A stretch of DNA of 64,000 bases from positions 441,374 through 505,373 of the forward strand of contig BROG01000550.1 of NCBI GenBank assembly GCA_030159075.1. Reading direction: 5' to 3'. The translations under genes and the position numbers were made by a program. Below the pieces are notes generated by a model. The model was not told the DNA's origin and did no database searches. It was given only the letters and a program-made list of their open reading frames with translations. Position 1 is the first letter of the stretch. Every line of letters starts with the position of its first letter. Origin of the DNA: Atrina japonica (taxonomy: Eukaryota > Mollusca > Bivalvia > Pterioida > Pinnidae). Shown piece by piece: positions 15,988 through 56,776 of the stretch.

Positions 15988-16029
<42 letters not shown>

Positions 16030-18760: not shown

Positions 18761-18789
18761 ATTCTATTTCATCAAATAGATAACTATGT

Positions 18790-39605: not shown

Positions 39606-40191
39606 TTAAAAGGGAAAGTATCCACGGTATTTTGCTAAAATTATGATGGAACATATTACGATACAAGCAGTTCCTATGCATTTGACTTTAATATGGTTGC
39701 TTTGAATGTCATCATCAAAATAGTTGTTCCGTATTCTATTAAGTTTGTGGATGTCGTCAGAATAACACCAGCATCTAAAAAATGCTTCAATTATTGCAAG
39801 TATAGGTTTCATCAACTGAACCCCCAGAGTTATCGGTTTTTCTGCTTTAAACGCAACGATCAAGGCAAGAATGATTTGCGTAACATCCTCAATCCAGGTC
39901 GAAAATGTAGAAACAGTATGTGGATGACAGCAGGCTTCATCTAGAGCCATTTTCCCAATCAGATTGACCAACTCGAACACAAATATTAGTGTTCCGACAA
40001 TAGCAAATACTTCAATGGCATTATGGATCCATGTTGCCTGTTGTATTGTTATTTGTTCAGTCTTAACTATTTCATTATGGAAACACCAGTCCAAATACAG
40101 ATCTATTACTTCTAGGAAGATTAAACCCAAGATCTTGCTGCAGCTATTCATACTGGAGATCAAACTTTCCACTTCTTGTTTATTTCTTTGT
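39606..40191 (-). CDS. Terminal exon of a multi-pass membrane protein, copy B2
   Basis: Same length and frame as 29787-30372, with the same acceptor ('tttctttaactag|acaaag'), GTG at the apparent start and intact stop. It differs from the B1 copy by about a dozen residues, for example 'ITGTLIFVLELVNL' versus 'IVGTLIFVFELVNL', and no frame-breaking change has appeared in either. Both copies staying open after the loss or gain of kilobases around them suggests coding constraint or recent duplication. Upstream exons are not recognisable on the minus strand between 40192 and about 41600. Function unknown. Confidence 0.7.
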
Positions 40192-41624
40192 CTAGTTAAA
40201 GAAAAACAATATTGATTTTATATTTTTTATGATAATAAGCAGTGTGTTTAGTGGAATTTTTTACCAATTTAATTATACAGTGTGCAAAGTGAATGCATTT
40301 AGTATTTGATCATTTTAAACACATGCACAGTACATTCCTGACTGATAGTCTGTGAAGGAATTGTCGACTTTTTATTTACAAATGTGCTTGTTTCTACTTC
40401 CGAAGACTTTTGACCAATTTTACTCATTTTCAATATCATTAAAGACATAAGAATATAATAATCAAATGCTCATTAGAGCCTGCATTGCACAACTGGACTT
40501 TTAGCAAAACGTAGAAATTCTACTTAAGCCGGTAACGATTCAATTTGGATGATGGATCGATACCAAAGTAAAAACATTTTAGTCAGTACGCTTGTAAGGT
40601 ACAGTTATGTCATGTTTGCTTCAATTCATTCAACATTCAATATGAATTCGACATGACCAAAATATTCGAATATAGTCAGATATGATTTTAGGATGGACAA
40701 ACAGACAACCTTTGACAAAACCCATTGGTCTTCTCAGCCCATTGCCGAGCATAAGTTTGTATGATTACTACCATGTTACTTGTTACAGTAAGAAGTTGTT
40801 TGGAGAATGTCGGGAAGAAAATGAAGTAGCTGTGTAAAATCTATATATAACAGATGATATAACCTTACCGTTGTTTGGTAGCTTTTAATCCTTTCCAATA
40901 AAGGTGATGTAAATATGATGATCAGGTACCGAATCAATAACAACAATCAATCTCAATAGTTATGAAAATGAAAAATAAATAAATTTTCTCGTGGCGCTTC
41001 AGGTTGTTTATGCGCAAAACTTCTCGTCTCCAAGAAATGACGCTGCAACGTTCTCGAATGAATAAAATACACTTTTGAGATAAAGCATATTACATGTTAG
41101 ACTATTTCAGTATATTTACCTTAGCAACATAGTTCATATAAAAGAAACTAAGAAAATGTACTGCCCCTTTGTTGCAAAATATCATATACCGCATAATTCT
41201 ATTTATAGAGCAATCTATTCTTGGTTTATAAAATGATTTTCGGTTTTCTAAAAATGTTGATTAATATCTTTGAATGTTGTTTAAAAGGATTTTTCGAAAT
41301 GAATTGTCGTTTTACTATTGCATATGGAAAACCAAAATGTCGTAGAGTTATTTATATCTGTCTGGAACCAAATATGTAATATGTCAATTAACTTTAAGTT
41401 CTCATACCTAAGTGAGTCTCTCAACAATAATAATCAAAGTACCGAGAATGCTGAAATAGTCAGGTTACAAATATCCAAGTAATTAATATTGCCTATTTTC
41501 ATTCTGACGCTTTCTTTCCCACATTCTGCCTAATATACCCTCGAGCTTCGTATGCTGAAGGATACAAACTGTTTTTTCGTAAACTAGAATTTATATTTAG
41601 AGGAAATTCCTCATATATACCCAG
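40192..41624. other. Duplicated non-coding DNA upstream of the membrane-protein exon (B2)
   Basis: Includes the empty TTAA site at about 40886. An upstream exon of the minus-strand gene may hide here, but none can be picked out. Confidence 0.4.
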
Positions 41625-41905
41625 TTGGGATATCGTTGGCCCAACATATCGCGCTATGTGGCCAGCGCTTTCAGCCAACGGTTGCTACCAATGTATAAGT
41701 GCAAAGTGGGCCAAGTTGGGCCAACATGTTGTTTTCACATTGGTCCAATGTTGTACATTGAGTGAAGAAACGTTGATTCAAGACTGGACCGATGTTATAT
41801 TTACCGAAAGCCAAACGTTGGTACTGCGATGGCTCAAGATAGATATCCCATCAATGTTTGGCTAGCATTATGTTGGCTCACATTGGTTCACCATTGGATA
41901 GGAAG
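41625..41905. repeat. 'gttggcccaac'-rich dispersed repeat (B2)
   Basis: Partner of 33881-34175, with small indels. Confidence 0.7.
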
Positions 41906-42059
41906 AAACCAATAAATATTAATTCTGCAATGGCACAACACTTGGTTAAGCATTCGGAAATTCCATATTTTTCAGTAAGAACTAAGTTTGGTTCAATATT
42001 GTTCCAATATTTAATCTATCGCTGGAACACTGAAAATACAGCTTGTAAGTGCAAGAACC

Positions 42060-42402
42060 CTCAATGTATATACCTAAAAAGATACGACAGAATCAAGCAC
42101 AAACGCTTCATACTTAGGCATTATATTTACTATAGACACAGACGGGAAATGAACAACTAAGCTTCGACAAACGCGACGATTTCGCTTTTCCATCGCAAAC
42201 TTTCTACATTTAACTAGTAATATCCCACAATCCCCCGCATATGGAGTTTATATTTCCGCAAATTATCCGATTATGCCAGGGCGTGCTCAACATAATGAAC
42301 ATTTCATATACAGAGGTTTAACTACTCATGACAAATTATCGACACAGGGGATATCGAAAACCACGTTTGATGTAAACGTTCCACAAATTTTACGGTCGGA
42401 AA
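42060..42402 (+). pseudogene. Penelope-like reverse-transcriptase C-terminal fragment (B2)
   Basis: Longer than the B1 copy. It also keeps the stretch equivalent to 48847-48890 ('gatacgacagaatcaagcac') before 'tagacacagacgggaaatga'. The frame is broken. It ends at the same point, directly abutting the promoter-like repeat. Confidence 0.7.
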
Positions 42403-42680
42403 TGACGTCATGTTGTCATGGCAATAAGGAGAAAGAGCCAATCGTTGAGCTCGGAAGTGTGTGTATGATCGGAAGTTGGAGGTTGTGGAGGAGGTCATCT
42501 TGGATAACGAGCCAATGAGAGCCTTCGTTACAAGAGGTTGGGATTACGAGAGGTCTCGTGAGTTCACGAGAAGTCAACGGCTAAAAATAAAAGCGGCGAG
42601 AGTTGACGATCCTGTATCAAGTGCACAAGCGCGAGAAGCGGTAGGCCGAGCTCGAGTCAAGCTTGAACATGTTATCCTTG
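42403..42680 (+). promoter_or_regulatory. Copy of the CRE/ETS promoter-like repeat (B2 right edge)
   Basis: TGACGTCA at about 42403-42410, 'gagccaatcgttgagc', 'cggaagt', 'gccaatgagagccttcg' and 'acgagaagtcaacgg' match 21590-21760. The NRF1-type palindrome is degenerate ('gcacaagcgcgagaagcg'). Confidence 0.5.
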
Positions 42681-43724: not shown

Positions 43725-43737
43725 AGGTTTCTTTTCG
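43725..43737 (-). promoter_or_regulatory. Histone-downstream-element-like motif 1
   Basis: Minus strand CGAAAAGAAACCT, separated by exactly 12 nt from the stem-loop at 43750-43765. The same 13-mer occurs at 54499-54511 and 55386-55398. Confidence 0.6.
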
Positions 43738-43749
43738 AGTAAGTTGGGT

Positions 43750-43765
43750 GGCCCTTAAAAGGACC
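43750..43765 (-). terminator. Histone-type 3' stem-loop 1
   Basis: Minus strand GGTCCTTTTAAGGGCC: 6-bp stem (one G-T pair), loop TTTA, 3' flank ACCCA exactly as in histone mRNAs. It starts 2 nt after the stop codon of the minus-strand gene 43768-43983. Confidence 0.7.
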
Positions 43766-43767
43766 GT

Positions 43768-43983
43768 TTAAATTTTCGAGTTCTTTCTCGAAGTCAGTCG
43801 CCTTATTTCTGCCTCGCGCAGGCTCAGAAGCCTCAAATCCGCCTGAGCCATAGTATACTGTAGCTCAGGCATCGGGAGTGCTGATGGCATATTTCTTGGC
43901 AGAGGGGGCCTAGTTGGTGCTGTTCTATGCCTATAAGGTGGTTGTGGCGGCGGACGGGGTGTAAACAGCCACATTTCTCTCAA
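43768..43983 (-). CDS. Small proline/arginine-rich protein, left end of element
   Basis: 72 codons including the stop. The N-terminal half is rich in Pro and Arg ('TPRPPPQPPYRHR'). The C-terminal half is helical and charged ('LRLLSLREAEIRRLTSRK'). The frame is intact. Upstream on the minus strand are a TATA box (TATATAAA, 44036-44043) and a CRE word (44072-44079). Downstream, after only 2 nt, is a histone-type stem-loop. No homologue is recognised. It is divergent from the ATPase gene, with about 250 bp between the starts. Confidence 0.55.
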   Translation of the reverse strand: MREMWLFTPRPPPQPPYRHRTAPTRPPLPRNMPSALPMPELQYTMAQADLRLLSLREAEIRRLTSRKNSKI

Positions 43984-44029
43984 ATGGTGAATCAGTTTTT
44001 CATGATGAACTGATACAGAGTAAAACCAA

Positions 44030-44080
44030 ATGTCTGGTTTATATAGAGACTATGAACGCACACACAAGCTATGACGTCAG
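44030..44080 (-). promoter_or_regulatory. TATA + CRE promoter for the minus-strand gene at 43983
   Basis: Read on the minus strand: 'gacctctgacgtcatagc' then 'gtctctatataaaccagac', about 50-60 bp upstream of the ATG at 43983. The order and spacing fit a TATA promoter. The opposite direction, towards the ATPase, has no equally clear box. Confidence 0.5.
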
Positions 44081-44230
44081 AGGTCTATTCGGAGTATGAG
44101 TTGTTTCATGACGCCTACAACTACTACTCGGAACGTTTTTTTGTCTTATACCTTAAATGATTTATACATACACTACTAAAGTGACAATATATATAATACT
44201 ACATCTCTCTGTTTCATTACTTGTATTAAA

Positions 44231-44503
44231 ATGGCTTACTATCAGTCCATATCTCCCGATACGATACAATTAAAGCATGAATTTACCACGGTTGTGGCAG
44301 GACCTACCAAATCGGGGAAAATTGAATTTGTAAAACAGTTGATAGAATGGAAGGATCAATGGATTCATTCCCCTCTCGAAAAAATTGTATGGTGTTATCG
44401 TGAATAGTAACCTGCTTATGAAATCTTACAACATGGTCACTTCATTCAAAATATACCTGAGGATGACGAAGTCTTAGTTTATGATCCAACTCGTCGTCAC
44501 CTA

Positions 44504-44577
<74 letters not shown>

Positions 44578-45001
44578 GTCTTTGATGATATGATGGGTAG
44601 TAAAGCTCTCGATTCTATCGTAGAATGGTTTACACGTAAAGCACATTATCGGAACACTAGTGTGATCTACTCAAAACTTGTTTGATCGTGCTAAACAATA
44701 GCATACCATAAGTCTGAATGCTCATTATCTCGTCCTGTTTAAAATTCCTACAGATAAATCTCAAATGACCAGCTTATTACGTCAATTAGACCTACCAGGA
44801 TTAAACCATGCTTATCACAATGCTAGAAATCGTCATCATGGTTATCTCTTGATTGATCTCACATCGTCTACCCCTGATAATCTAAGATTAAGATCAGATA
44901 TATTTCGTCCTTGGTATAATGGAGGGATAGTGTTGTACACACCTTATAAAGCGACTGTAACTTTCTCTAGGCCGTCATTTCTCGTATTCCTGTTAACGTA
45001 G
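44231..45001 (+). pseudogene. FtsK/HerA-type genome-packaging ATPase (A32-like), broken
   Basis: The family pumps DNA into preformed capsids. The ATG at 44231 starts a frame with the Walker A motif 'VVAGPTKSGK' (residues about 23-32; the motif ends in Ile where Thr/Ser is usual). Two adjacent stops (TAG TAA, from 44405) follow, then 'DDEVLVYDPTRRHLP', a run of 67 T (44507-44573), then the Walker B-like 'LLVFDDMMGSKALDS'. A stop or frameshift lies near 44683, and the C-terminal part 'SLLRQLDLPGLNHAY...HGYLLIDLT' runs to about 45001. Length apart from the breaks is near the usual ~240 residues. The gene is clearly dead. Confidence 0.85.
44507..44573. repeat. 67-nt poly(T) run inside the ATPase gene
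   Basis: An uninterrupted T homopolymer between the 'TRRHLP' and Walker B parts of the ATPase. It may be an expanded slippage tract, the poly(A) tail of a minus-strand retroinsertion, or an assembly/consensus artefact. Confidence 0.95.
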
Positions 45002-45005
45002 AATC

Positions 45006-45480
45006 ATGAATCCTTTACTTAAAGCCACCAGTAAACTGGTGACTACTTTAAGAAAATTGCAATTGGAGAAAGATCCCGTAAGACGCCAAGAATTGTGAGA
45101 ATTAGGTAGAGACGCTTTATTGAAATGGTTTGGTATAGGAGCAAAAAATTTTCGGTCTGGTACTATTCCAGTGACCAAACCGTCAGCAATGTTAATACAG
45201 AGATATTCTGATCATTTAAAAATCGTTGGTGACCCAAAAGCTGTTGAAGAAGCTAAGAAAACTACTATCTTTAAACGGGGAGAGGCAGGGTTCTTAGGTG
45301 GGGTAATCATTCGATCCCTATTACAATGGGCTAGTCGTCTCAAGAAGAACACTGCACCTAAAAAAAAACACCCCTCCTCCTGAGCAGAAAAAGAAAACCC
45401 CTAAGAAGAAGAAGAGCTCTAAGAAGAAGAACCCGCCATTGATTCTAAAACTGAATCTGAAACAGATTCGTGAATCTGAC
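45006..45480 (+). pseudogene. Small basic protein with Lys-rich tail
   Basis: ATG at 45006. One in-frame TGA at 45096, then an open frame to 45383 ('WFGIGAKNFRSGTIPVTKP', 'GFLGGVIIRSLLQW'). A nine-A run at about 45360 shifts the frame. Beyond it the +1 frame continues as a Lys-rich tail ('EQKKKTPKKKKSSKKK'), which suggests a nucleic-acid-binding or nuclear-import role. It starts 5 bp after the ATPase end, in the same direction, as expected in these compact elements. No family name. Confidence 0.55.
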
Positions 45481-45583
45481 ACCTGTAACCAACAACCCTG
45501 TAGCAGGAACTTCTATTGCAACATCTATCTTTGGACAAAGAAACGGGTCTTTGGAAAACTAGTTCATCTTCAATTGACTGTCC

Positions 45584-45694
45584 CTTAACGACGACATATT
45601 CTAACGAATCAACATGGTGGTGTTTTACCTATCTTACCCTTATTAGCGCCATTACTGGGGCCGTAGCTTCTCCTGTCTTAAAATCTATTCTATA
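45584..45694 (+). pseudogene. Short hydrophobic peptide gene
   Basis: Frame 'RRHILTNQHGGVLPILPLLA' followed, after a one-base shift at 'ggggccg', by 'GAVASPVLKSIL' and a stop at about 45692. A basic start, Gly-Gly and a Leu/Pro/Ala-rich hydrophobic run are typical of the small core- or membrane-active peptides encoded beside capsid genes in Maverick-like elements and adenoviruses. That is an analogy; there is no firm homology. Confidence 0.4.
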
Positions 45695-45697
45695 ACC

Positions 45698-46196
45698 ATG
45701 AGCACACGAAAAATGATCTTAGTCCCCGAGAGGACCATTGAGGAACTCAAGCAATGGCGAGAAAGAAGTTTACACCCTTTGCCTCATACACCTGAAGTAG
45801 CATCTTAGGTACGTTACGGTAATGAATTAGATGCGATCGTAGATCGTGATGATTTGACTCCTGAAGCTAAGGTAGCCAAGTTTGGTCAAGAACTTTATCG
45901 ATACCGTACGTATCTTGAACAAGCTCGTCACCCTGAAGAACAGAGAGAGACCTTGGTCTCAAAAAACAGAAAAAGTAAAAGAAGTGAAAGATGATGTTAA
46001 AGCTGAAATGTCTCCTGAAGAACAAGATCGTATGACAGCTATTACATCCAGTGTCACTGCTCCATTAAAACCAAAAGTCCCTTTGTTATATAAACATCTC
46101 AAGAAACAATCTGATATACTAAAATGGGAAAAAGCCCGTCAAATACAATACAAAGGGAAGACCGTACCTGGGACATTGGAAAGGATATCCTTCTAG
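45698..46196 (+). pseudogene. Helical protein, conserved in this element class, broken
   Basis: ATG at 45698 gives 'STRKMILVPERTIEELKQW'. A TAG at 45806 is followed in frame by 'YGNELDAIVDRDDLTPEAK' and 'KFGQELYRYRTYLEQARHP'. A frameshift near 45940 then leads to the frame ending at 46196 ('DVKAEMSPEEQDRMTAITSS', 'LLYKHLKKQSDILKW'). It is charged and strongly helical. Proteins with this look (a 'KM-x-x-VPE' start and repeated helices) occur beside capsid genes in related elements. Function unknown. Confidence 0.5.
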
Positions 46197-46205
46197 TTTT
46201 GATTC

Positions 46206-46466
46206 ATGGATCCCAAAATCCAACTTGATCGACCAGTAGACTCGGTAAGCCGAGTGTCTATCAGAGTCAACAATGAGCCCACAAAGCAACTACCCGATAG
46301 AGTAAGTCATACGCCTAGTACTACTTGGAAATGGTGCGGATAAAACATACCTCGAAATGAAATAGTATTCTTTGTTCAAGTAATTCTTGCCTTTACTATC
46401 ATCATAGCTTGCGTCGTTCATTTGGCTAATCCCAGTATGAAACTACCCTATAAAGCAAATCATTGA
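46206..46466 (+). pseudogene. Small single-pass membrane protein, one stop
   Basis: 87 codons counted through an in-frame TAA at 46341. The N-terminal half is polar ('MDPKIQLDRPVDSVSRVSIR'). It is followed by 'TTWKWCG', the stop, then 'IPRNEIVFFVQVILAFTIII' and 'ACVVHLANP', one membrane helix with a short tail. Small proteins with a 'WKWCG...PR-EIVFF' region are common in Maverick-like loci of invertebrates. Role unknown, possibly virion membrane or assembly. Confidence 0.6.
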
Positions 46467-46533
46467 ATTTATAAAGGATTCAAGTTCCCAAGTTTGAATC
46501 CATTCCTAAGGACTGTATTGATAGTGACACATT

Positions 46534-47037
46534 ATGACACTCATCGTTCATAAAGAGGTATCTCGTCAGAAAGGATATGGGCTTCTCTTTCCTAAATTGA
46601 TTCAATCGTTAACGAGAACAACTCATGGTCTGATCTCTCCTCAGAAGGGTGAGATTATCAATACATTAAGACTTGCAGGTAGTATAGTCAATACACTCAT
46701 AGGAGCATTTCGTCCCAGAGCATCTGATATGCAATATGACAAGGGTATTTGGTCAGACTTTCTCAAACCTACCATGACGAAAGCCATTCCTCATATAGCC
46801 AAATTTGCTTTGAATACGGGCATGGATGTGATACCAAATAAACGTTCATTGAAAAATGCTCTTGTTCAACGAGGGAAAGAAGCAATGACCAACTTAATGA
46901 CTGGTCCTAAGAAAACATTAGCTCATGCACCCTCTCGTTTAGCAGACAAGAAACGAACAGGAACAACGAGTCATATGAACAGTAGTATAAAAAAAGAAAC
47001 GAATGAGACCTCCCTTTCAGTCTACTTCTACAAGTAA
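46534..47037 (+). CDS. Putative minor capsid/core protein upstream of the capsid gene
   Basis: 168 codons including the stop, intact. It begins with a polar segment, then 'KGYGLLFPKLIQSL'. A middle region reads 'KAIPHIAKFALNTGMDVIPN' and 'SLKNALVQRGKEAMTNLM', then a basic tail ('SRLADKKRTG'). The layout (Gly-rich start, amphipathic helices, 'T-G-x-D-V' then a basic repeat) and the position directly before the capsid gene fit the minor capsid proteins compared with adenovirus pVI. That is inference from position and style, not from a conserved catalytic residue. The surviving frame is notable next to so many broken neighbours. Confidence 0.55.
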   Translation: MTLIVHKEVSRQKGYGLLFPKLIQSLTRTTHGLISPQKGEIINTLRLAGSIVNTLIGAFRPRASDMQYDKGIWSDFLKPTMTKAIPHIAKFALNTGMDVIPNKRSLKNALVQRGKEAMTNLMTGPKKTLAHAPSRLADKKRTGTTSHMNSSIKKETNETSLSVYFYK

Positions 47038-47081
47038 ATCTAAACAGGTCGGAAGAGAGCAAGTTATCTTTAACTAACAAG

Positions 47082-47802
47082 ATGATGATACAAAAAGATT
47101 TGTGTGAGTGTAGTAGTGAAGCTTTAGAGTTGTTTAATGTCCCTCATACCAATGTAACCTTAGAAGAACGAAGATGGATGGAAAATTACACCGTCTCTAG
47201 TGTCAATACACAATCTGCCCCTATTGAGTTTAAATCAAAGGACAAGGCGATGAGTATTTGGATTTGAACCAGACTTATGTGTGCGTAGAAGCTAAAATCG
47301 TCAAAAAAGATGGAACTAATAGAGCAGTTGGTAGTTAAATCACCCCGTCAACAATTTGCTGCACAGTTTGTTTTCCGAGATCGATTGTAATCTAAATGGA
47401 AAAGTGATCACTCCTCAATCGATACCTGTCCCTATCGAGGTTATTTCGAAACGTTGCTGTCCTTTTCTGACGAAACGTTAAAATATCAAATTAGTGCTAC
47501 AAGTTTATGGTACAAGGATAAACCTGGACGATTTGACAAGGTGAATCCTCATACCGGTGATGGCGGCGAGAAAAAACTCTGGATCGGCTGATCGTCATGA
47601 ACGTATCAGTGAAAGTAAAACCTTTAATATGATGGATCGTCTCCATTTGGATATGTTTGAACAGAAACCATTTCTACCTAATGGTATATTTGTACACTTA
47701 AGGTTTAATAGAAGTCGTGAAACCCTTTACGTAATGTGTGGAGGAGGTGAATTGCGTTATTTGAAGATATTACAAATGTATCTAGTGGTACGTAAAGTGA
47801 AA
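47082..47802 (+). pseudogene. Capsid-family protein (F54H12.2-like), truncated by a retroelement
   Basis: The ATG at 47082 begins 'MMIQKDLCECSSEALELF' followed by 'VPHTNVTLEERRW' and 'SAPIEFKSKD', the recognisable start of the family annotated F54H12.2-like, which accompanies Maverick packaging genes and is taken to be the jelly-roll capsid protein. Stops and frameshifts occur near 47266, 47335, 47385 and 47540. The middle part is recognisable again at 47557 ('GSADRHERISESKTFNMM', 'PFLPNGIFVHLRFNRSRE', 'LQMYLVVRKVK'). At about 47802 it passes without a frame break into reverse-transcriptase sequence, so roughly the last 40 percent is missing. I do not reconstruct it. Confidence 0.75.
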
Positions 47803-48918
47803 TCCATCGCAACCTTACTGAATCAGATGAACAAACAGATGAATCCAAAAGTAGAAATTGAACTGGATAGATTACATGACCAATATGTACTGGTACCAGC
47901 AGGCAAAGCCTCAAATAATATTGTTTTTATTTGTAGGACACATTACTACAATTGTTTATTAGAAGAACTTCGGTTTAATACGAATTCTGGAAATCCTACA
48001 TACACACGTAGCTCATTTTCAAAGTACGAGATCCTTCAAAATCACGTGTCCGTATTACGCTCATTTGATATACCTACAACGGATACCGATTTTGAGCTAC
48101 CATATTTATATTGGATACCTAAACTTCATAAAACCCCATATAAGCAAAGATGCATAGTAGGATCCAGCAAATGTTCTACCAAACCTTTCTCTTAACTCCT
48201 TACCAAGATATTGACAACTATTAAGGAGAAACTTCAACAATACTGTACAGTTGCTTATTCCAAAAGTGGTGTAAATCAGATGTGGATACTAAAAAATTCT
48301 AAACAGCTTTTAGAAAATTTGAAAGCACACAATTTTTCTCGAATTCACAGTATCAAAACATATGACTTCTCTACTCCGTACACAACCATTCCACATAAAA
48401 AATTTAAAGAAAGACTTTTAGTATCATAGACAACTGTTTTTTCACTAAAGGTGGTACCCGAAAATTTAGATATCTAGTGATTGGCTATCAGGATACTTAT
48501 TTTGTCTAACACCACTCTGATTCTACACATGAATACACTGAAGTTGATAGAAAAACATGCTGGAATTTCTAATAGACAATATATTTGTAATGTTCGGAGA
48601 CGTGGTCTTTCAACAAACAAACTGTCGGCATTCCTATGGGAACCAATTTGTGCCCCTTTATTGGCCGACCTGTTCTTTTATTCATACGAAGCAGATTTCA
48701 TTCAGAAACTGCTGAATCAAAAGAAGAAAAGGTTAGCGGTGTCCTCTTATTTGACATTTAAATATATCGACGACGTTTTGTCAATTAATAATGACAATTT
48801 TCATACATATGCCAATGCGATATATCCCAGCGAACTAGAGATTAAAGATACAACAGAATCAAGCACACGTGCTTCATACTCAGACATTTTACTTAACATA
48901 GACACAGACGGGAAATAA
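47803..48918 (+). pseudogene. Reverse transcriptase, Penelope-like type, broken
   Basis: Successive frames give 'RLHDQYVLVPAGKASNNIVF', 'LPYLYWIPKLHKTPYKQR' and 'IVGSSKCSTKP' (to 48195), then 'TYDFSTPYTTIPHKKF' (48211-48429), then 'APLLADLFFYSYEADFIQK' and the catalytic 'FKYIDDVLSINND' (48481-48918). The order of RT motifs, with YIDD and the 'IPKLHK' region, fits Penelope-like or a closely related RT family found widely in molluscs; the exact clade is uncertain. Two frameshifts and several stops kill it. The remaining C-terminal region (48919-49190) is recognisable only in pieces. No GIY-YIG endonuclease is visible. Confidence 0.72.
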
Positions 48919-49490
48919 GCAACTAAGCTGTACGACAAACGCGACGATTTCGGCTTTCCCATCGTAAATTTTCCACATTTAGAATAGTAAATATCCTTTT
49001 TATGTTTTATATCACCCCATCCGATATGCTAGGACTTTATATTTCACAAATGATCCGATATGCTAGGGCATATACAAACATATGAAGATTTCATATACAG
49101 AGGTAAACTACTCACTGACAAATTGTTGACACAGGGATATCGAAAACCGCGTTTAATGTCAACGTTCCGCAAATTTTACGGTCGGTATAGTAGCCTTGTT
49201 TGCGTTTACTGTTTCACTGAGTGAAATGTTGAGTTACCTGTTCGATGGTGGTTGTTGAGACGTCTGTACCAATTGTGACGAAGATTCATTCCTCACGTAT
49301 TTCATTGGACTTGACTGTGGACTCACGGCGGGTGTGACCGGTCGACAGGGGATGCTTACTCCCCATGGCACCTGATCCCACCTCTTAGTATCCAGAGGTC
49401 CATGTTTGTTCATTTTTACCTGATTTGTATCTATGTCCTGGACATTCTATTGATTTATACTTTGGTATCTGAGATTTTTTATATTTTCTC
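47803..49490 (+). mobile_element. Penelope-like retroelement, 5'-truncated, inserted in the element
   Basis: Runs from inside the RT coding region to a 3' tail that contains 'actcacggcgggtgtgaccg', 'ggggatgcttactcc', 'atggcacctgatcccacctc' and 'tttggtatctgagatttttt'. Related tails, or parts of them, occur at 25685, 36440, 56935, 57170 and 60960. The insertion joins the middle of the capsid gene to the palm region of the polymerase gene, so it came with a deletion of both. Confidence 0.7.
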
Positions 49491-49491
49491 C

Positions 49492-50515
49492 AGATTAAGC
49501 AACAGGCTAGTGGTTTTCCTGTTTCCTGTCAAACAGTAGAAGACCGTCGTCAGTACCTCAAAGAAATTGAAACGAGAGAACATGGTTACCAACCCGGATA
49601 CGCTCCTGTCCTTCGGACTGAGACAGTAAAAACCGAGGTCCCGTGTCACAGTGAGTGTCGGCACGTTAAAGAACCCTCACTGCTCAATGGCCATAGGTGT
49701 CGAGCATAGGCCAAAATTTGAAGCCCTTCACCGGCATTGGTGACGTCTCCATATGAGTGAAAGATTCTTGAGTGGGACAATAAACAACAATAAACAAACA
49801 AACAAACAAACGAAACATTACAACAGTTACTTCAAGATGACACTCGTGATATATTACATTCAGAACTGATTCCAAATGACGAAGGCCATGATGAGCTAGA
49901 CATGATGCTGGTGAATTCGAAACCGAAGGAAGACTTTGATGAACCGAATGGTTTTAGCATTGTAGTGCTAGCAGCCTTTACTACGCCTTTAGCACGGTTA
50001 CATCTCTATGCCACCCTAGAACGGTTGGGAGAACGTGTGTTGTATTTTGATACAGACAGTATCATTTATCAACACGATCCGCAGCATTGGAATCCCACTA
50101 TAGTGGACAGTTTAGGAGGATGGACAGACGAATTAGATGGCGATTCTATCTTATCCTTTGTCTCGGGAGGTCTTAAAAATTATGCGTACAAGACTCGTTA
50201 GGACAAAAAAGGGTGTGTAAAGTCAAAGGAATCACTTTTGATAGTCGTACCACTTCTACGGTCAACGTAGATACATTGAAAAAGTTGTTACGTGGTCAAC
50301 AAAAGAAAGTGCTTATATCGTACCTTCATAAAATCATGCGAACGAAACAGCATAAAGTCAAAACACAGGCGATGACTAAAGACGTGCGCGTAGTGTATGA
50401 TAAGAGACATCGCATTGAAAACTTTTGTACTTTACCTTATGGTTATAGAAAAAGTGAGACTGAAAACTTGAGACTGTTTGAAAAATTGTTTGAAAAGTTG
50501 TTTGAAAAAAGTTAG
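49492..50515 (+). pseudogene. Family-B DNA polymerase (Maverick type), C-terminal part
   Basis: Starts with 'KQQASGFPVSCQT...EDRRQYLKEIE', interrupted by a SINE (about 49596-49813), and resumes with 'LVNSKPKEDFDEPNGFSIVV' and the palm motif C 'LYFDTDSIIY' (about 50040), which carries the two metal-binding Asp residues. A TAG and a G-run frameshift near 50200-50212 precede the last part ('TKDVRVVYDKRHRI', 'FCTLPYGY'), which ends at 50515. The exonuclease domain, the protein-priming region and most of the palm are missing. In this family the enzyme copies the element from a protein primer. This copy is inactive. Confidence 0.85.
49596..49813 (+). mobile_element. SINE (molluscan type) inside the polymerase gene
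   Basis: Contains 'cggactgagacagtaaaaac', 'cgaggtcccgtgtcacagtg', 'gtgtcggcacgttaaagaac', 'cctcactgctcaatggcc' and 'gtgacgtctccatatgagtg', and ends in a (CAAA)n tail. This is the 3' half of a SINE family related to the elements at 12755 and 18553. The tRNA-like head is absent, so the copy is 5'-truncated. Confidence 0.8.
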
Positions 50516-50840
50516 GTTAACTTTGGTGTTGTTGTTGATATAAAACAGAAGAGGGTGAAGGATAGGGGTTCATTTAACACCATTTAAATTCGAAAATCTT
50601 CTAAAGCTAAGATAGTCATTTATTTTACAGTGGTTACTCTTAGACGGATTTCGGCTATACTTTAAGAGTTATTATTTGACCTTGTATGATACAGCTTTAT
50701 CTTTAGAAAATACACATATTTTTCAAATTGGAGCTCAACCGATGAAGTCTAATTGACAGAAACGATATATCGTCTTGAGCATTATAACTTTGGTATTATG
50801 TTTATAATATTTATACAATGTCATCTCAAGTACACGTATA
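50516..50840 (+). other. Spacer with a possible DnaQ-like exonuclease scrap
   Basis: A frame at about 50640-50755 reads 'LLLDGFRLYFKSYYLTLYDT' then 'ALSLENTHIFQIGAQP'. The 'YYL-x-x-YDT-x-x-L...I-Q-I-G-A' pattern resembles the first exonuclease motif of DnaQ-like nucleases found in some of these elements, but the second acidic residue (E of DxE) is gone and nothing follows. A TATA-like 'gatataaaa' is at about 50536. This is a weak call. Confidence 0.25.
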
Positions 50841-51871
50841 ATGGCTACTCTCGATTCTAAAGATCATGGTAGTTTTTACATGACTTTACCTAGCGATGCT
50901 AGTTGAAAGGTCTTTCATGATAATACCTTAACAGAATTCAAAACTCATTTACTCAAGCTTTAAGTATGATGGATAGTGAGTGGAAAGTATCTTTGAGTGA
51001 ATTGATCTTTCCCAACTTAATAGAATTCGTAGGATCGAATGATAATTACATAGATGTCCTGGTTCCCGTTCACGTTCCTTTGGAATCCGTCGTTACGTCT
51101 ACAGATCCCCTGGACCCCTCTACGTATCCTAAGAAAAGGGAAATGAAATATCGTCAACATGAACGTTTTACTGTAGAATTGATTAAGAAACACGTCTTCT
51201 TAGATGATTCCCAATTTGACCATGTCATCTCTAAAACAGATACGAAGTCGGGGATCGCTTTTGTAGGAAGTATTTGGAGACTTAAATATTGTTCGGGGTT
51301 TTATGCGTCTCCTGCAGCTTTAAAAGAAGAGATGAGAGTCGGGTTTTCTAGAGCCTTTCAATATGTCATTGATGGTGTAGAAGAACTATCACATAAAAAT
51401 ACTATTCAATTCAAGTATGACTCAGCTTTAGATCGATTCATGATTGAGTTTAAAGGCCGATCCATCTATTCCGTTCCCTTTTTAATACGTTTTCCAAATC
51501 TACTAGGTTATAAACTCGGCTTTGAAGCCATTGACATGCATGAGGGTATGGCTAAATGGATCGACGTTATACACATGCAACGGTATCCACCCGATTTAAA
51601 TATTGGTATGAGTGGTATCTATGTCTACAGTGACATTGCCGAAAGTTAAATTGTGGGTTCACAATAGTTACCGTTATTACGTGTGGTGCCTTTTCAAACG
51701 GGTCAATTGCTCAATCATCAACATAGGGAACCTTATTATTACAATTATGTGGGATTAAATAAAATGTATTTTGATACCATTGAAATACAATTGAGAGATG
51801 ACATGGGACGTAAAGTTCATTTTCTAGGGGACAAAGTGATTGCCAAACTTCATTTTCGTCGTGTGATTTAA
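50841..51871 (+). pseudogene. Conserved unknown protein of Maverick-like elements, broken
   Basis: The ATG at 50841 gives 'KDHGSFYMTLPSDAS', a stop, then 'KVFHDNTLTEFKTHL'. A frameshift near 50960 leads into the long frame 50966-51649 ('SEWKVSLSELIFPNLIEFVG', 'FVGSIWRLKYCSGFY', 'IRFPNLLGYKLGF', 'GIYVYSDIAES'). Two in-frame stops separate it from 51683-51871 ('RDDMGRKVHFLGDKVIAKLH'), which is the same frame. The 'SFY-TLPS...LTEF...W-VSL-E-IFP' start and 'IEIQLRDD-G' end are recurrent in this element class. The role is not known; a structural role is plausible. Full length would be about 340 residues. Confidence 0.7.
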
Positions 51872-51878
51872 TCATAAA

Positions 51879-52340
51879 ATGAAGTGCATCACAGGACTTT
51901 GGTCAGTTGATGCCGAGAGTCATCATGTCAACATCTTCTATTGGACATCTATCAATATGAAACCTACGAGAAAGGAAAATGAAATGAGAAAAGACGTGGG
52001 AAAAGAAGAGATGAAAAGACCAAAGGGATTGAAAGGGGAGAAACAGAAAGAAGAGAAACAGAGAGAAGAAGAGAAACAGAGAGAAGAAGAGAAATAGAGA
52101 GAAGAATGACAGAGAGAAAGAATGGGGAAACGGTGGAAGGACAGAGTCAGGAAAGGACAGAAGGACAGGAAAAGATAGAAGGACAGAGAGATGAAGGAGA
52201 AGAAGAACAGAAACAGAGAATAAAAAAGGGGAACGTCCACGAAAAGTATCCATAGAGAACAAAAGAAGAAAGAGAAGAAAAAGGACAGATGGAGGGAGTG
52301 AAAAGAAAGAGGGGAATACCACAAAAAGTAGAACACGAAG
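51879..52340 (+). repeat. Purine-rich low-complexity repeat over a short frame
   Basis: After a short frame from 51879 ('KCITGLWSVDAESHHVNIFY'), the sequence becomes a long GA-rich stretch with 'gagagaagaagagaaacaga' units (about 52020-52300). The Lys/Glu-rich peptide and the minus-strand frames across it are products of the repeat. The first ~35 codons may be a genuine gene start that the repeat has invaded. Confidence 0.6.
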
Positions 52341-52349
52341 AAATACCTC

Positions 52350-52577
52350 ATGATTTTTATGTTTATACGAAAATGGTTAATCGACTGTCGTCAGTCTCCC
52401 ATGTACGGTGACACTTTTCATTTACAATTAAATGATAATAATGGTAACCGAGCAGGTATGATGTATCATGTGCATAAAGAACAACGACAACAAGCATGGG
52501 ATCCTATTGGTCATAGTGTAGACGTACCGATGATACAATTTGTGTTTCAGGACAAAAAACGTAAAAAATTTGAATGA
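52350..52577 (+). CDS. Hypothetical 75-residue protein of the element
   Basis: Starts in the track with a non-ATG-like context near 'ttttatgtttatacg'. It encodes 'GDTFHLQLNDNNGNRAGMMY' and 'PMIQFVFQDKKRKKF', with a basic end. Unrecognised. It may be the tail of the preceding broken gene rather than a gene of its own. It ends about 35 bp before the TATA box of the BIR gene. Confidence 0.35.
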   Translation: MIFMFIRKWLIDCRQSPMYGDTFHLQLNDNNGNRAGMMYHVHKEQRQQAWDPIGHSVDVPMIQFVFQDKKRKKFE

Positions 52578-52611
52578 TTTTGGTCTGATCTAAAAATAGA
52601 CTTTATGGACC

Positions 52612-52620
52612 TTATAAAAA
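52612..52620 (+). promoter_or_regulatory. TATA box of the BIR gene
   Basis: 'ttataaaaa' followed by 'ggggtgaaac', 61 bp before the ATG at 52681, which leaves room for a transcription start about 30 bp downstream and a short leader. Confidence 0.55.
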
Positions 52621-52680
52621 GGGGTGAAACTCCATGTCAGGAACAATTCACTTTCAGACACGATGGAAAGAACATAAAGT

Positions 52681-53175
52681 ATGGATCCTTTATCTTCATC
52701 GACGATGGATGCTTGTCAGACCGTTACAGATAGTGCTCCCATGAACGGAGACATGATGGACAGTGTACCACGAACCCATCGGGTAGAAGTGGATAGTGTA
52801 CCGAGAGCCAACCTGATGGAAGTGGTAAGGAGTTCATCTACAGAAAGGAGACAGGCTGTGACCACTTTTAAACTAAGACCTGCTTCTGTCAGAGGGTTAT
52901 CGTTTTATCAGGAATTAAGAGTACCTTTAGCCTTACCTACTTTTTGTACGTATGAATCCAGGTACCTGACGTTTAAAGATCATTGGCCAAAATATCTACC
53001 GGGACCTAAACAGACACAATTAGCCAGAGAAGGATTTGTGTATTTAGGGAACAGTGACCACGTTCAGTGTTTTTGTTGTGGTACCTGTTTAAAAGATTGG
53101 GAATGGTCCGATAATGCTTATACAGAACATCGACGTTGGTCTAAAGATTGTGCTTTCAGTCAACTGGTGATATAA
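52681..53175 (+). CDS. BIR-domain (IAP-like) protein
   Basis: 165 codons including the stop, intact. The first ~75 residues are unstructured, with repeated 'M-D-S-V-P-R' phrases. The C-terminal ~85 residues form one baculoviral IAP repeat: 'SRYLTFKDHWPKYLPGPK', 'LAREGFVYLGNSDHVQCFCC', then zinc ligands in the exact spacing C-x2-C-x16-H-x6-C ('CFCC...EHRRWSKDC'). There is no RING or second BIR. IAP family members bind caspases or IAP antagonists and block apoptosis, and DNA viruses of invertebrates often carry them, so a host-survival role during element activity is a reasonable inference. It has its own TATA box, unlike the tightly packed structural genes. Its intact frame contrasts with its neighbours. 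Confidence 0.88.
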   Translation: MDPLSSSTMDACQTVTDSAPMNGDMMDSVPRTHRVEVDSVPRANLMEVVRSSSTERRQAVTTFKLRPASVRGLSFYQELRVPLALPTFCTYESRYLTFKDHWPKYLPGPKQTQLAREGFVYLGNSDHVQCFCCGTCLKDWEWSDNAYTEHRRWSKDCAFSQLVI

Positions 53176-53277
53176 AAAAACAAAAAAATTAAAAACAAAA
53201 AAAACCCTTCCGGGATAACCAAGTGCCTGGCGTGAACGAGTCTAAATATAGAATAAGAAGAACGGCTATAAAGTAAA

Positions 53278-53841
53278 ATGAAGTTTAGTCAACGAACAAC
53301 ATTTGAATCAGTCATCAACATGAGTTATCCAGGATTGCCTCAGACGCACCCTAATTATTCACCTAATTGTACACCGTACATAGAAGGGGCTGATGAATTT
53401 GATGAAGTTCCCAAAACTTTAGAACAGATGGAGGATGAAAAACAAAAAACTGATGCGGCCAAGGGAATGTTACGTGTTGCCTTCCTATCCACATTACAGA
53501 AAACACTACAGCCAGAAGTCAAAATATCGTATATGGGTTACGAATATAAGCCTTTCCCAACGACTCATCCTTGTTTCATTTGTGGTGAAATTGGACATTG
53601 GTCTCGTAGATGTCCTAAGAATAACGAGTCGTCAACAACATAAGTAAGAGTATATCCTGAGAACAAAGTAGAAAGTAGATCCCGTCAATCGGACCAGTGT
53701 TATAAATGTCATCAGTCAGGTCATTGGGCTTATGAATGTCCCGAACCGACTTCAACAGGAGCCAAACGTAAACTCAACGTGATGCTCAAGAAGGGGTGAA
53801 AACCCACCAAGAAAGTGAAAGTGGAAACCGAACAGAAGTGA
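53278..53841 (+). pseudogene. Protein with two CCHC zinc knuckles, two in-frame stops
   Basis: ATG at 53278. The first knuckle, 'CFICGEIGHWSRRC', is at about residues 99-112. An in-frame TAA lies at 53641. The second knuckle, 'CYKCHQSGHWAYEC', is in the same frame at about 53698-53739. A TGA at 53797 and a final TGA at 53839 follow, with a Lys-rich end ('KPTKKVKVETEQK'). Both knuckles keep all four ligands (C-x2-C-x4-H-x4-C) and the aromatic after His, so they would bind single-stranded nucleic acid. The context (BIR gene upstream, same strand, no gag or pol nearby) argues that it is an accessory protein of the virus-like element and not a retroviral Gag. The stop at 53641 could leave a one-knuckle protein. 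Confidence 0.75.
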
Positions 53842-53994
53842 TGATGTGATTTTTTGACCTGTTATAATGTAAATACGTTTACTGTCACAGCGTCATGGAA
53901 TCCGAACCGACCGTTCTTTTGCTCCGTGCTGTATGGGCAAGATCAACCGTAGTAGTGAGACAAAGTGATAAAAATTTGTTTGCGTGTTTTAAGA

Positions 53995-54125
53995 CTGTTT
54001 CATAGTGATGAACGTTTCAAAAAGTTATCAGTGTTTTCAAGTTAATAAGTGTTTCAAAGTTAATAAGTGTTTTCAAAGTTAATAAGTGTTTCAAAGTTAA
54101 TAAGTGTTTTCAAAGTTCATTCTTA
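53995..54125. repeat. ~19-bp tandem repeat 'aagttaataagtgttttca'
   Basis: About six units of alternating length in the spacer after the CCHC gene. It resembles the 'caaagt' repeats at 43130-43430 on the other side of the element. Confidence 0.7.
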
Positions 54126-54498
54126 TGTATTGTACAAAGTCACAGAGGGACGGCCCTAATCCTATTCCGACTATCTAAAAAAGTTTTTAGCGGGGTATTA
54201 AACTTATTAAATATCTGGTGTATGTGTATTATGTCTGGGTATAATGTGTACACTTAGAGTTTAGAGTACACTTAGAGTTTAAACCTAGTATCTACACGGT
54301 AGACACAAAGGTACACAGAGTGATCTGGTGTAAAACACCATTGACAAACTATGAGTATGACTAGAAGGATACCAAGAGTAATAGTGTAAAACTTAGATAC
54401 TTAGAGTAGAAGAGATACAGAGAGAGAAAATGACGGTATACAAAGGATCTTTGTTTTATTATTGCAACTATAGAACTACTGTTACTCTAATCAGTCAT
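54126..54498. other. Spacer of the element
   Basis: Contains short duplications ('gtacacttagagttta' twice near 54247-54280). No gene is seen. Confidence 0.5.
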
Positions 54499-54511
54499 AG
54501 GTTTCTTTTCG
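54499..54511 (-). promoter_or_regulatory. Histone-downstream-element-like motif 2
   Basis: Minus strand CGAAAAGAAACCT, 12 nt beyond the stem-loop at 54524-54539. Confidence 0.6.
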
Positions 54512-54523
54512 AAAAAGTTAGGT

Positions 54524-54539
54524 GGCCCTGAAAAGGGCC
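54524..54539 (-). terminator. Histone-type 3' stem-loop 2
   Basis: Minus strand GGCCCTTTTCAGGGCC: perfect 6-bp stem, loop TTTC, 5' flank AAC, 3' flank ACCTA. This is the textbook histone consensus. It lies 9 nt after the stop of the gene 54549-54752. Confidence 0.78.
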
Positions 54540-54548
54540 GTTTGTGGT

Positions 54549-54752
54549 TTAGGTTTTATATACCATGACATTAAAAAAGCATTTTGTGCGTTTGCTCTGC
54601 CGTCTTTCTCTTTTTCTTTTTTCAAACTTCACGAGCTCTATCCATTCATCGATGTTCGTTAGCCATCCCACATTTCTTTCCACTATATCGGCACACACCA
54701 TCCATTCTTCTTTTTCTTTAACTTCACCCCACATGTTTACGCATTCAGCCAT
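54549..54752 (-). CDS. Small charged protein with histone-type 3' end
   Basis: The first ATG in frame is at 54752 (the longer frame starts at a TTG), giving 68 codons including the stop. Composition is Glu/Lys/Arg and Trp rich ('WGEVKEKEEWMVCADIV', 'WIELVKFEKRKRERRQSKRT'), helical, with a basic patch near the C-terminus. It is not a histone and not otherwise recognised. It is divergent from the plus-strand gene at 54870 across a ~115-bp spacer that would have to hold both promoters. Confidence 0.5.
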   Translation of the reverse strand: MAECVNMWGEVKEKEEWMVCADIVERNVGWLTNIDEWIELVKFEKRKRERRQSKRTKCFFNVMVYKT

Positions 54753-54869
54753 GATCAAGCAATGACTATAGACTCTTAGACATACTCAGCAGGTTGTGTC
54801 GTCACTCATCGCGTCAGCGTTTCTTCTCCTGATTGTTGAACATCGTTTAGTGAAAAACAAAAAACAAAA

Positions 54870-55227
54870 ATGGAACGTATACAGAGGCTATTCATAAAAT
54901 TATTCTGTTACGATAGAAGAAACAAAATGACCACGATGCAGTGTGATCATTACTATCAGAGCCTACTGATGAAACTCAATCAGAGATGGAGGCAACTGAA
55001 ACAACAGCAAACCTCACAGAAAGTCGGGGATCAACTCGACCGGCAGTACCGATAGTGCTTAGACCATCTGGCAGCTCAGTATGTATGTACTAGAAAACAG
55101 ATTAGAGCTAGTTTTCGTCAACTACAGATACCGATCATCATGACTATCAAAAGGAAGACAAATGATCTACTGGAAGCAGAACGACGTTTACTTCTGAAAA
55201 AGAGAAGATGTTACTGTCAATATTAGT
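54870..55227 (+). pseudogene. Basic helical protein with histone-type 3' end, one stop
   Basis: 119 codons including the final stop, counted through one in-frame TAG (near 55053) after 'QKVGDQLDRQYR'. Beyond it the same frame continues 'CLDHLAAQYVCTRKQIRASF', 'TIKRKTNDLLEAERRLLLKK', 'RRCYCQY'. It is rich in Arg, Lys and Gln and strongly helical, so a coiled coil or DNA-binding role is possible. The final stop lies 13 nt before stem-loop 3. The continued coding look after the TAG shows that the stop is a recent lesion or a read-through site. Confidence 0.55.
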
Positions 55228-55240
55228 ATCCTAACCAACG

Positions 55241-55256
55241 GCCCTTTTTAGGGCCA
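55241..55256 (+). terminator. Histone-type 3' stem-loop 3
   Basis: Plus strand GGCCCTTTTTAGGGCC: perfect 6-bp stem, loop TTTT, 5' flank CCAAC, 3' flank ACCAA. It follows the plus-strand gene, so hairpin orientation tracks gene orientation. Confidence 0.72.
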
Positions 55257-55268
55257 CCAAACTCATTA

Positions 55269-55281
55269 GAAAAGTAATCTA
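55269..55281 (+). promoter_or_regulatory. Histone-downstream-element-like motif 3
   Basis: AGAAAAGTAATCT, a weaker variant of the 13-mer, again 12 nt beyond its stem-loop. Confidence 0.5.
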
Positions 55282-55385
55282 AACTGTATTGATATATGCT
55301 ACATATACTAATTACTCTATTATAAAACACTCCTTCTCATAAACCCTATAACTCATTTCATTGTATACACTGCACATTCAGTTTA

Positions 55386-55398
55386 AGGTTTCTTTTCG
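55386..55398 (-). promoter_or_regulatory. Histone-downstream-element-like motif 4
   Basis: Minus strand CGAAAAGAAACCT, 12 nt beyond stem-loop 4. Confidence 0.6.
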
Positions 55399-55410
55399 TA
55401 AGATATCAGT

Positions 55411-55426
55411 GGTCCTGAAAAGGACC
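55411..55426 (-). terminator. Histone-type 3' stem-loop 4
   Basis: Minus strand GGTCCTTTTCAGGACC: perfect 6-bp stem, loop TTTC, 3' flank ACTGA. It lies 24 nt after the stop of the gene 55451-55705. Confidence 0.74.
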
Positions 55427-55450
55427 GTTGTTTTTAATATCTGCCATGAT

Positions 55451-55705
55451 TCATGAACAGAATCTCTTGTTAAACGGCAAACACTTCTCGTCCACCATCT
55501 GCTTACGTTTTCTCTCTTCTGTAACAAACCACTAAACAGAATTGAGAAGTACAATTCGTCTCAGGTGAACATCTTCCTTTCCCTGTTGAAAGTTCATATT
55601 AATCTTTCGTAACTTCTCTTTGGTATCACGAACAATCTGATTGGTATCATATACCGGAACAGGTTCGTTTTCTTGTTCCATAGTGTACTCTATAGCATAC
55701 TCCAT
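55451..55705 (-). pseudogene. Small helical protein with histone-type 3' end, one stop
   Basis: ATG at 55705. 85 codons including the final TGA, with one in-frame TAG after about 49 codons ('EDVHLRRIVLLNSV' then stop then 'WFVTEERKRKQMVDEK'). The start is acidic ('MEYAIEYTMEQENEPVPV') and the middle basic and helical ('RDTKEKLRKINMNFQQGK'). Unrecognised. It is the outermost gene of the element on the right and is too short when split to stand out as an open frame. Confidence 0.5.
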
Positions 55706-55794
55706 GTTTAATATTTTTTATCACTCTTAGACTGATTTCTCCTAGGCGTCTATCACTGCTTGCTTTTTCATTGAGTGAAACCACGTTGCCAACG

Positions 55795-55930: not shown

Positions 55931-56176
55931 AGTGCATAACCGTTTGTAAATGAAAAGTCGAGCATTCTGTCACAAAATATCACTCATCATTTATTTTCAA
56001 CGTGTGTGCTGTGAACATGCGTATAATAAGTAAAAAAGTACAAATATTTACATGCTGTATAATTGTCGTAACATTTTATAATTCAAAAGTTCAAAGTTTT
56101 TATAACCTGTCGAAATCTTTGTCATGTAATTTATAATTATTTTAATGATAATCATAATTCATTTACCTTTAACCAG
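55931..56176. other. Spacer between the element and the membrane-protein pseudogene
   Basis: No gene seen. The true right boundary of the virus-like element should lie here or slightly to the left, but no target-site duplication or terminal repeat is evident. Confidence 0.4.
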
Positions 56177-56776
56177 ACAAAGAGATACACAAGAAGTGGA
56201 GCGTTTGATCGCCAGTATGTGCTGTAAAAAGTTCCTTCTGATTTTCGGATTTATCCTCCTGGAAGTATCAGATCTGTGTTTTGACTGGAATTTCCACATT
56301 GACGTAGTTAACAGTGGATAAGAAACAATTAAAGATGAAGTACGGATCCATTATGCCATCCTGGGTTTGCTATAGTCGGATCAGTAATATTTTTGTTAGT
56401 AAATCCGTTTGGGAAAGTGGTAAAAGAGGAGACTGCTGCTATTCCCATATTATCTCAATACTGTCGACTTGGATTGAGGATGTGCCGCAAATAATTCTTG
56501 CATTGATTGTTGCGTTTAAAGAAGAACTGATAACCTGGGTTCAATTGGCAAAAGCTGTTTTTGCAATAGTTGAAGCTATCATCAGATTGTCTATCGTCAT
56601 TTACAAACTGTTTAAAAGACATAACAAGTGCCATGGCGAAAATGACATTAAATGTAATCATATTGTATTTAATGTAATCATATTGTATTTAATGTAATCA
56701 TATTGTATTTAATGTAATCGGAACAATTTGTATTTTCATTTGTTCCATCATAATTCTCATAAAATTGTTTAGTTAG
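56177..56776 (+). pseudogene. Third copy of the membrane-protein exon, broken
   Basis: Same exon edge as the B1/B2 copies ('tttaaccag|acaaagagat'). It continues 'FLLIFGFILLEVSDLCFDWN', then a TAA (near 56319) and, after one frameshift, 'FAIVGSVIFLLVNPFGKVV'. After another shift comes 'LSTWIEDVPQIILALIVAF', 'AVFAIVEAIIRL', a triplicated 20-bp unit (about 56650-56712), and a last helix 'CIFICSIIILIKLF' ending at 56776. It is much more diverged than B1 versus B2, so it is an older paralogue. It confirms which parts of the family are conserved: the E-V-x-D first helix and the W-I-E-D-V-x-Q helix. Confidence 0.75.

Follow-up and report, generated by a model that had tools for sequence, protein, structure and literature searches.

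Why should small genes of a virus-like mobile element, none of them a histone gene, end in the stem-loop that closes replication-dependent histone messages? The question is raised by a 64,000-nucleotide (nt) stretch of the genome of the bivalve Atrina japonica (GenBank assembly GCA_030159075.1, contig BROG01000550.1, positions 441,374 to 505,373 of the forward strand), which was analysed at its full length and is called the window here. It contains remnants of what appears to be a Maverick- or adinto-like element, and four small genes of this element, gA, gB, gC and gD, are each followed by a 16-nt hairpin and, beyond it, by an A-rich 13-mer (Table 1). We find that the four genes very probably carry true histone 3' processing signals of the host type that are used by the host pathway. 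To our knowledge, histone messages are the sole animal mRNAs that lack poly(A), and their 3' end is reserved for histones and coupled to DNA replication.

Four small genes end in histone-type signals

An earlier note on this DNA had described four hairpins on the coding strands of small genes and had ascribed them to the histone 3'-end pathway. We searched the window with the Rfam model Histone3 (RF00032), whose gathering score is 34 bits. All four hairpins are present on the strands proposed and all four are matched by the model, three of them over gathering and the fourth, at 43750 behind gA, with 31.5 bits; no further Histone3 match occurs in the 64-kb window up to an E-value of 0.5. The positions given earlier were exact for three hairpins, whereas that of gC had been placed at 55241-55256 and belongs one nucleotide to the left, at 55240-55255. 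The description of three perfect stems and one stem with a G-T pair (at 43750) proved correct, as did the spacing of 12 nt between hairpin and 13-mer, which follows from the coordinates at all four sites. The gD stem, GGTCCT/AGGACC, is a compensatory variant of GGCCCT/AGGGCC. Distances of 13 and 24 nt from the stop codon to the hairpin hold for gC and gD, but the 2 and 9 nt reported for the other two genes rest on the stops of decayed frames. In copies with longer frames, the hairpin lies 25-36 nt past the stop in gA, mostly 16-18 nt in gB, mostly 13 nt in gC and mostly 25-26 nt in gD.

We compared these counts to dinucleotide shuffles of the window. A loosely defined hairpin occurs 0.73 times per shuffle on average (60 shuffles, maximum 3), and the hairpin alone is thus not rare. 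The complete module of a hairpin, 8-20 nt and an A-rich heptamer, a motif defined after inspection of the four sites, is found four times in the window and not once in 300 shuffles, by which a chance origin of the hairpins is ruled out.

The host uses the same signals

A histone H4 query gave no match in this genome, which does contain H1-like genes and a stem-loop-binding protein, SLBP. We judged this null result uninformative, as such conserved genes are possibly unassembled, and therefore used H1-like genes as the host comparison. Seven such genes were found, four of which (L010, L147, L148 and L150) carry the hairpin with the 12-nt gap; their Histone3 scores are 41.9 bits for L010, 33.5 bits for both L147 and L150, and 30.0 bits for L148. 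The element's 13-mer, CGAAAAGAAACCT, is present identically at L147 and L148, and L147 continues past it with TTAACTG, as do some copies of the element. Two exons encode the RNA-binding domain of the host SLBP (PF15247), each scoring over cut-off, and one has a match at an E-value of 3e-14 to the PDB entry 4l8r_C, 'Histone RNA hairpin-binding protein'. The 3' ends of gA-gD have in common with replication-dependent histone mRNAs the 16-nt GGYYYT-TTTN-ARRRCC stem-loop, an ACC-type 3' flank, the A-rich element at 12 nt and a 13-mer shared with two host H1 genes. They differ from replication-dependent histone genes in that gA-gD are non-histone genes of a mobile element, and in that many gB copies have a poly(A) signal as well.

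The module is conserved in many copies

We next turned to the genome as a whole (832 Mb in 2347 contigs), in which Histone3 gave 75 scored matches, 72 of them over cut-off; this number is a lower bound, as the window's own four hairpins are not among the 75. The 68 loci that were fetched cover 69 of these 75 places. By tblastn and blastn, the hairpin stands behind a gB relative at 39 loci, behind a gA relative at 13 and behind a gC relative at 2, while 13 others resemble the element's terminal region without matching a gene and one is a host H1 gene. Consequently, 67 of the 68 fetched loci look like element copies, three of them (L048, L049 and L056) on short matches in which the likeness to the terminal region covers 64 nt or less.

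Sampling that is independent of the hairpin covers gC. A protein search, in which the best 150 of 562 candidates were scored, listed 111 matches reaching residue 119, and every third of these, counted by hand, was taken without regard to the hairpin (n = 37). A hairpin is found 12-14 nt past the stop in 35 of the 37, some with one or two broken pairs, and two copies have none. In the 35 gC ends the mean share of the majority base is 0.968 for the coding end, 0.910 for the stretch from stop to hairpin, 0.971 for the hairpin itself, 0.974 for the gap of 12 nt and 0.967 for the A-rich element, and 0.803 further on; conservation drops past the processing signal. Between L018 and L053, protein identity for gC is 45%, with about 1.1 synonymous (dS) and 0.37 nonsynonymous (dN) substitutions per site; hairpin and 13-mer are the same in both, and the sequence further downstream is unlike.

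We aligned 20 hand-picked, related 3' ends, comprising the four of the window, four of host H1 genes and 12 of element copies. Every one of the 120 stem cells is paired. Changes on both sides are seen in six cells, at two of the six pairs, namely in gD, where C-G has become U-A, and in host H1, where G-C has become A-U, and pairing has been kept through them. The covariation score and the percentage of paired cells were each reached by none of 500 shuffles. In many copies, orthologous small genes have thus retained the hairpin and its spacing and, together with the Histone3 matches, the host SLBP and the four H1-like genes out of seven, this supports the earlier interpretation that accessory genes of a Maverick-like element use the histone 3'-end pathway of the host.

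The signal was seen on accessory genes

In the stretches examined, the signal is limited to gA, which lies in the terminal region, and to gB, gC and gD. None of 25 3' ends of the element's penton-like gene has a hairpin, a scan of all 30 penton-like loci found none either, and a poly(A) signal is present within 250 nt in 7 of the 25. A stretch with the polymerase gene (L145) and another with structural genes (L153) contain one Histone3 match each, at gA. The replication and capsid-type genes examined are without the signal.

In the window, gA lies in the terminal region of a structural half-element that is described below. Its longer relatives have about 100-112 amino acids (aa) and are proline-rich, then charged. 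Open relatives measure 59-65 aa for gB, 119 aa for gC and about 89 aa for gD, and the gC C-terminus, ERRLP-KKRRCYC, is invariant across seven aligned sequences. Many element copies are decayed, including those in the window. The ratio dN/dS is well below 1 in three gB pairs and in three gC pairs, and these two thus behave as real genes; for gA, synonymous sites are saturated in the single pair tried (L047 and L016). Among the small genes of the window, none has a Pfam match to a histone or a core protein, and a tblastn search of the 68 loci with five histones gave a sole match, H1 at L010. The idea that the hairpins mark histone genes inside the element is ruled out by these negatives.

Two likenesses were noted among the small genes. 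The C-terminal peptides of gC and gD resemble each other (LPLKKRRCYC and LPFKKRFC), possibly because the genes are related or because they share a signal. In L047 and L016, the sequence past the A-rich element (CTTCACTAAAGGTATGCAGGG...) is still alike despite the saturated synonymous sites of gA, which suggests that the terminal region is subject to a further constraint or to gene conversion.

Proposed use of the histone pathway and its alternatives

We propose that host SLBP would recognize the stem-loop of gA-gD transcripts as they are being made, and that the A-rich element 12 nt beyond it would serve as the pairing site of the host U7 small nuclear ribonucleoprotein. The histone cleavage complex would then cut a few nucleotides past the hairpin, in ACCCA-type sequence, and the resulting mRNA would end in the stem-loop without poly(A), like a histone mRNA. 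These messages would depend on SLBP for their stability and translation and would be made mainly in S phase, when the element could copy its DNA with its own polymerase. Processing by the histone machinery may take place now, or may have done so formerly, when the element was active. If true, a mobile virus-like element would have taken over the histone 3'-end pathway in a clearly parasitic manner, through several unlike small genes that occur in many copies, and Maverick-like elements would be able to couple their expression directly to S phase. The proposal predicts SLBP-bound element mRNAs without poly(A), and the hairpin module could be used as a sequence tag for such accessory genes when other animals are searched. 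We found no account of histone-type 3' ends on Maverick-like genes among the titles and abstract openings listed from the open literature, which is not proof of absence.

Several observations weigh against this interpretation. On the host side, three of the seven H1-like genes have no hairpin within the 780-800 nt fetched, and the H1 hairpins of L147, L150 and L148 score just under gathering. No U7 small nuclear RNA was detected in the genome with RF00066, a model that gave no match in its controls either. The pattern CTTTTCN{0,10}AANTTNNTCTNG had at least 399 matches (control 173), of which five were inspected, and TCTTTTN{0,14}AATTTGTCTNG had 75 (control 60), of which 20 were inspected; none of those inspected is U7-like, and a strong hairpin follows the Sm-like site in none of the 25 candidates. 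The control for the genome Histone3 search, 14 known genomes, returned one match, in Lactococcus lactis and below cut-off. The 68 loci were selected by their hairpins, and they show which genes own a hairpin, not what share of genes has one. In the alignment of 20 ends, the number of pairs with changes on both sides was matched in 106 of 500 shuffles and that of further pair types in 374 of 500. The spacing is 12 nt in 26 of 39 gB copies and 13-14 nt in the other 13, and the A-rich motif we used is unmatched in 6 of 13 gA and in 3 of 12 terminal-region copies. AATAAA or ATTAAA is found 32-65 nt past the hairpin in 30 of 39 gB copies (for example L059, L040 and L030), and polyadenylation could be an alternative or backup end in gB. 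Finally, scans of viral contigs with penton-like, capsid-like and PolB (family B DNA polymerase) pieces and with the stem-loop pattern gave no relatives.

A possible if unlikely alternative is that the sites are functional, and that the gain lies in a compact 3' end that needs no poly(A), not in S-phase timing, for example in ending the convergent genes gC and gD or for expression while poly(A) processing is blocked. Indeed, gC and gD converge tightly, with their A-rich elements about 105 nt apart, and a poly(A) signal within 167 nt is seen in just 1 of 37 gC ends. Yet gA and gB also carry the signal and neither has a close convergent neighbour in the window, and SLBP in any case ties histone-type messages to S phase. 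We consider it doubtful that the small proteins are themselves histone-like or core DNA-condensing proteins whose bulk synthesis with replication the module ensures. The isoelectric points, calculated for one copy each, are basic for gA (10.3), gC (10.3) and gD (9.6), and gC ends in KKRRCYC; gB, however, is only mildly basic at 8.8, and the Pfam negatives for histones and core proteins argue against such a role. It is very improbable that the hairpins are idle leftovers and that the genes are polyadenylated further downstream. The poly(A) signals behind most gB hairpins would fit this view, and histone genes, too, can have backup poly(A) signals; in gC, by contrast, hairpin and A-rich element are as conserved as the coding end, and the signal survives at 45% protein identity. 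That the hairpins act at the DNA level, as recombination or replication signals with a secondary likeness to histone ends, is scarcely credible: gA does lie in terminal regions common to both kinds of element described below and the hairpin is palindromic, but gB, gC and gD are internal to the element, each hairpin is oriented to the coding strand with an A-rich element on one side only, and stem, loop and flanks match those of host H1 genes.

Identity and organization of the element

The element fits a Maverick- or adinto-like one, judged from its genes and ends. A B-family DNA polymerase domain (PF03175) is found in L145 at 1.5e-15, over cut-off. L153 contains a chromodomain (1.2e-10) near an integrase-like frame (rve at E 0.03, below cut-off, and no PDB match), as well as an adenain-like protease (Peptidase_C5 at 19.8 bits against a cut-off of 21.3; adenain in PDB at 2e-4). 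A capsid-like frame has no Pfam match and no significant PDB match. The left end of L145 matches the right end of L153 at 91-94% when inverted, gA included; these ends come from two kinds of element, each in its own copy, and not from a single copy. Because of the polymerase over cut-off, the chromodomain, the protease near its cut-off and the shared inverted ends, we keep the Maverick-like label that had been proposed before. The name penton-like, for a gene without a Pfam match, is our assumption from its resemblance to penton genes. We likewise take frames in 44180-47844 to be packaging-ATPase-like and capsid-like, labels that no profile confirms.

The genes fall into two sets. A polymerase half comprises gA, PolB, the penton-like gene, gB, gC and gD, joined in the window by BIR and zinc-knuckle genes, and a structural half comprises integrase-, capsid- and protease-like frames, a gene of about 169-173 aa and gA. 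We counted how often these genes lie close together, using for each list the best matches (about 150) of 562-781 candidates. Among the matches listed, 68 of 150 for gC have a penton-like match on their own strand at a distance of up to 10 kb. For the structural gene, a listed polymerase-half gene is found no more than 30 kb away in 7 of 150, one of them in the window, which speaks against a single element; about 2 to 3 such cases would be expected by chance, by arithmetic from 232 distinct sites. Of these seven close pairs, two have their halves on opposite strands, the polymerase half leads in two, and in three (the window, C268 and C707) the structural half leads with both halves on one strand. 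As these three pairs agree in strand and order, elements that unite both gene sets may exist too. The Maverick gene set may be split over two separately integrated element kinds that share inverted ends, as judged from 44180-47844 and 49470-55717 of the window and from L145, L146 and L153. In the window the left part belongs to the structural half and the right part to the polymerase half, with other repeats between them, and this copy may thus be a junction of two half-elements. Our tentative proposal, which we hold to be somewhat less than probable, is a two-part element in which one part carries the polymerase, penton-like and accessory genes and the other the integrase-, protease- and capsid-like genes, each with the same kind of terminal region and its gA-type histone-signal gene, so that the histone pathway would provide a joint S-phase programme.

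We compared the element to known systems. With Maverick/Polinton elements and Adintoviridae it shares the PF03175 polymerase, the chromodomain beside an integrase-like frame, the adenain-like protease and inverted terminal regions, and, by a putative resemblance, penton-like and capsid-like genes. It differs from them in that its gene sets are seemingly distributed over two element kinds and that accessory genes have histone-type 3' ends. Nor did the titles and abstract openings listed from the open literature describe a two-part Maverick split, again no proof of absence. Bidnaviridae (compare PMC4061559) are likened here by description, not by sequence. They are PolB-bearing viruses with a two-part genome, and are small single-stranded DNA viruses. 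Adomaviruses have a histone-like gene, 'Histoid', according to PMC11071296, whose main text does not contain the word 'stem-loop'. They too are animal DNA viruses that involve histone biology, through a histone-like protein as far as that account goes, whereas here we see an RNA 3' signal only, with no Pfam histone match. A canonical histone-loop pattern occurs in two viral contigs, neither with an Rfam match at gathering. Protein relatives were found on short public contigs, two for the penton-like gene and three for gC at 58-62% identity.

Other features of the window

Table 1. Processing signals, small genes and other element genes of the window (positions counted from its first nucleotide)
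Feature	Position	Strand	Remarks
gA stem-loop, histone-type	43750-43765	-	one G-T pair; Histone3 31.5 bits, E 4e-5, below gathering
gA downstream A-rich 13-mer CGAAAAGAAACCT	43725-43737	-	12 nt past stem-loop; identical in host H1 loci L147, L148
gB stem-loop, histone-type	54524-54539	-	Histone3 38.6 bits
gB downstream A-rich 13-mer	54499-54511	-	gap 12 nt
gC stem-loop, histone-type	55240-55255	+	13 nt past stop; Histone3 38.3 bits
gC downstream A-rich 13-mer AGAAAAGTAATCT	55268-55280	+	gap 12 nt
gD stem-loop, histone-type	55411-55426	-	24 nt past stop; Histone3 34.5 bits
gD downstream A-rich 13-mer	55386-55398	-	gap 12 nt
gA small gene, decayed frame in window copy	43768-44049	-	open reading frame (ORF); relatives L047, L016, L145, L153
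gB small gene, decayed 3' end in window copy	54549-54752	-	ORF; alignment of 7 copies
gC small basic protein gene	54870-55226	+	76% identity over residues 11-119; one in-frame TAG here
gD small gene	55451-55717	-	C550:496830-497081 at 78% identity; one in-frame TAG here
Structural half-element remnant	44180-47844	+	44763-47844 matches L153 at 84-94%; no Histone3 match in these genes
Structural gene, about 169-173 aa	46528-47037	+	at least 150 genome matches
PolB C-terminal remnant, then penton-like gene	49470-51871	+	no Histone3 match
BIR-domain (inhibitor-of-apoptosis-type) gene	52678-53175	+	PF00653 2.9e-21; between penton-like gene and gB
Zinc-knuckle (zf-CCHC) gene	53272-53643	+	PF00098 4.2e-7; between penton-like gene and gB

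Inverted repeats at about 39.8 and 56.5 kb (80% identity over 97 nt) had been candidates for the ends of the element. They were dropped because the sequence recurs near 30 kb and because the shared ends adjoin gA in other copies. Related ORFs of a multi-copy sequence are found at 39606-40217, 29787-30332 and 56130-56697, and inverted copies of it flank the element region. A reverse-transcriptase-like repeat, which we presume to be Penelope-type by its likeness and which has no Pfam match, occupies 41455-42526 and 47545-49334 and adjoins the junction of the half-elements. Positions 9681-21043 and 22138-42526 of the window are large direct duplications whose longest blocks are 87-99% identical.

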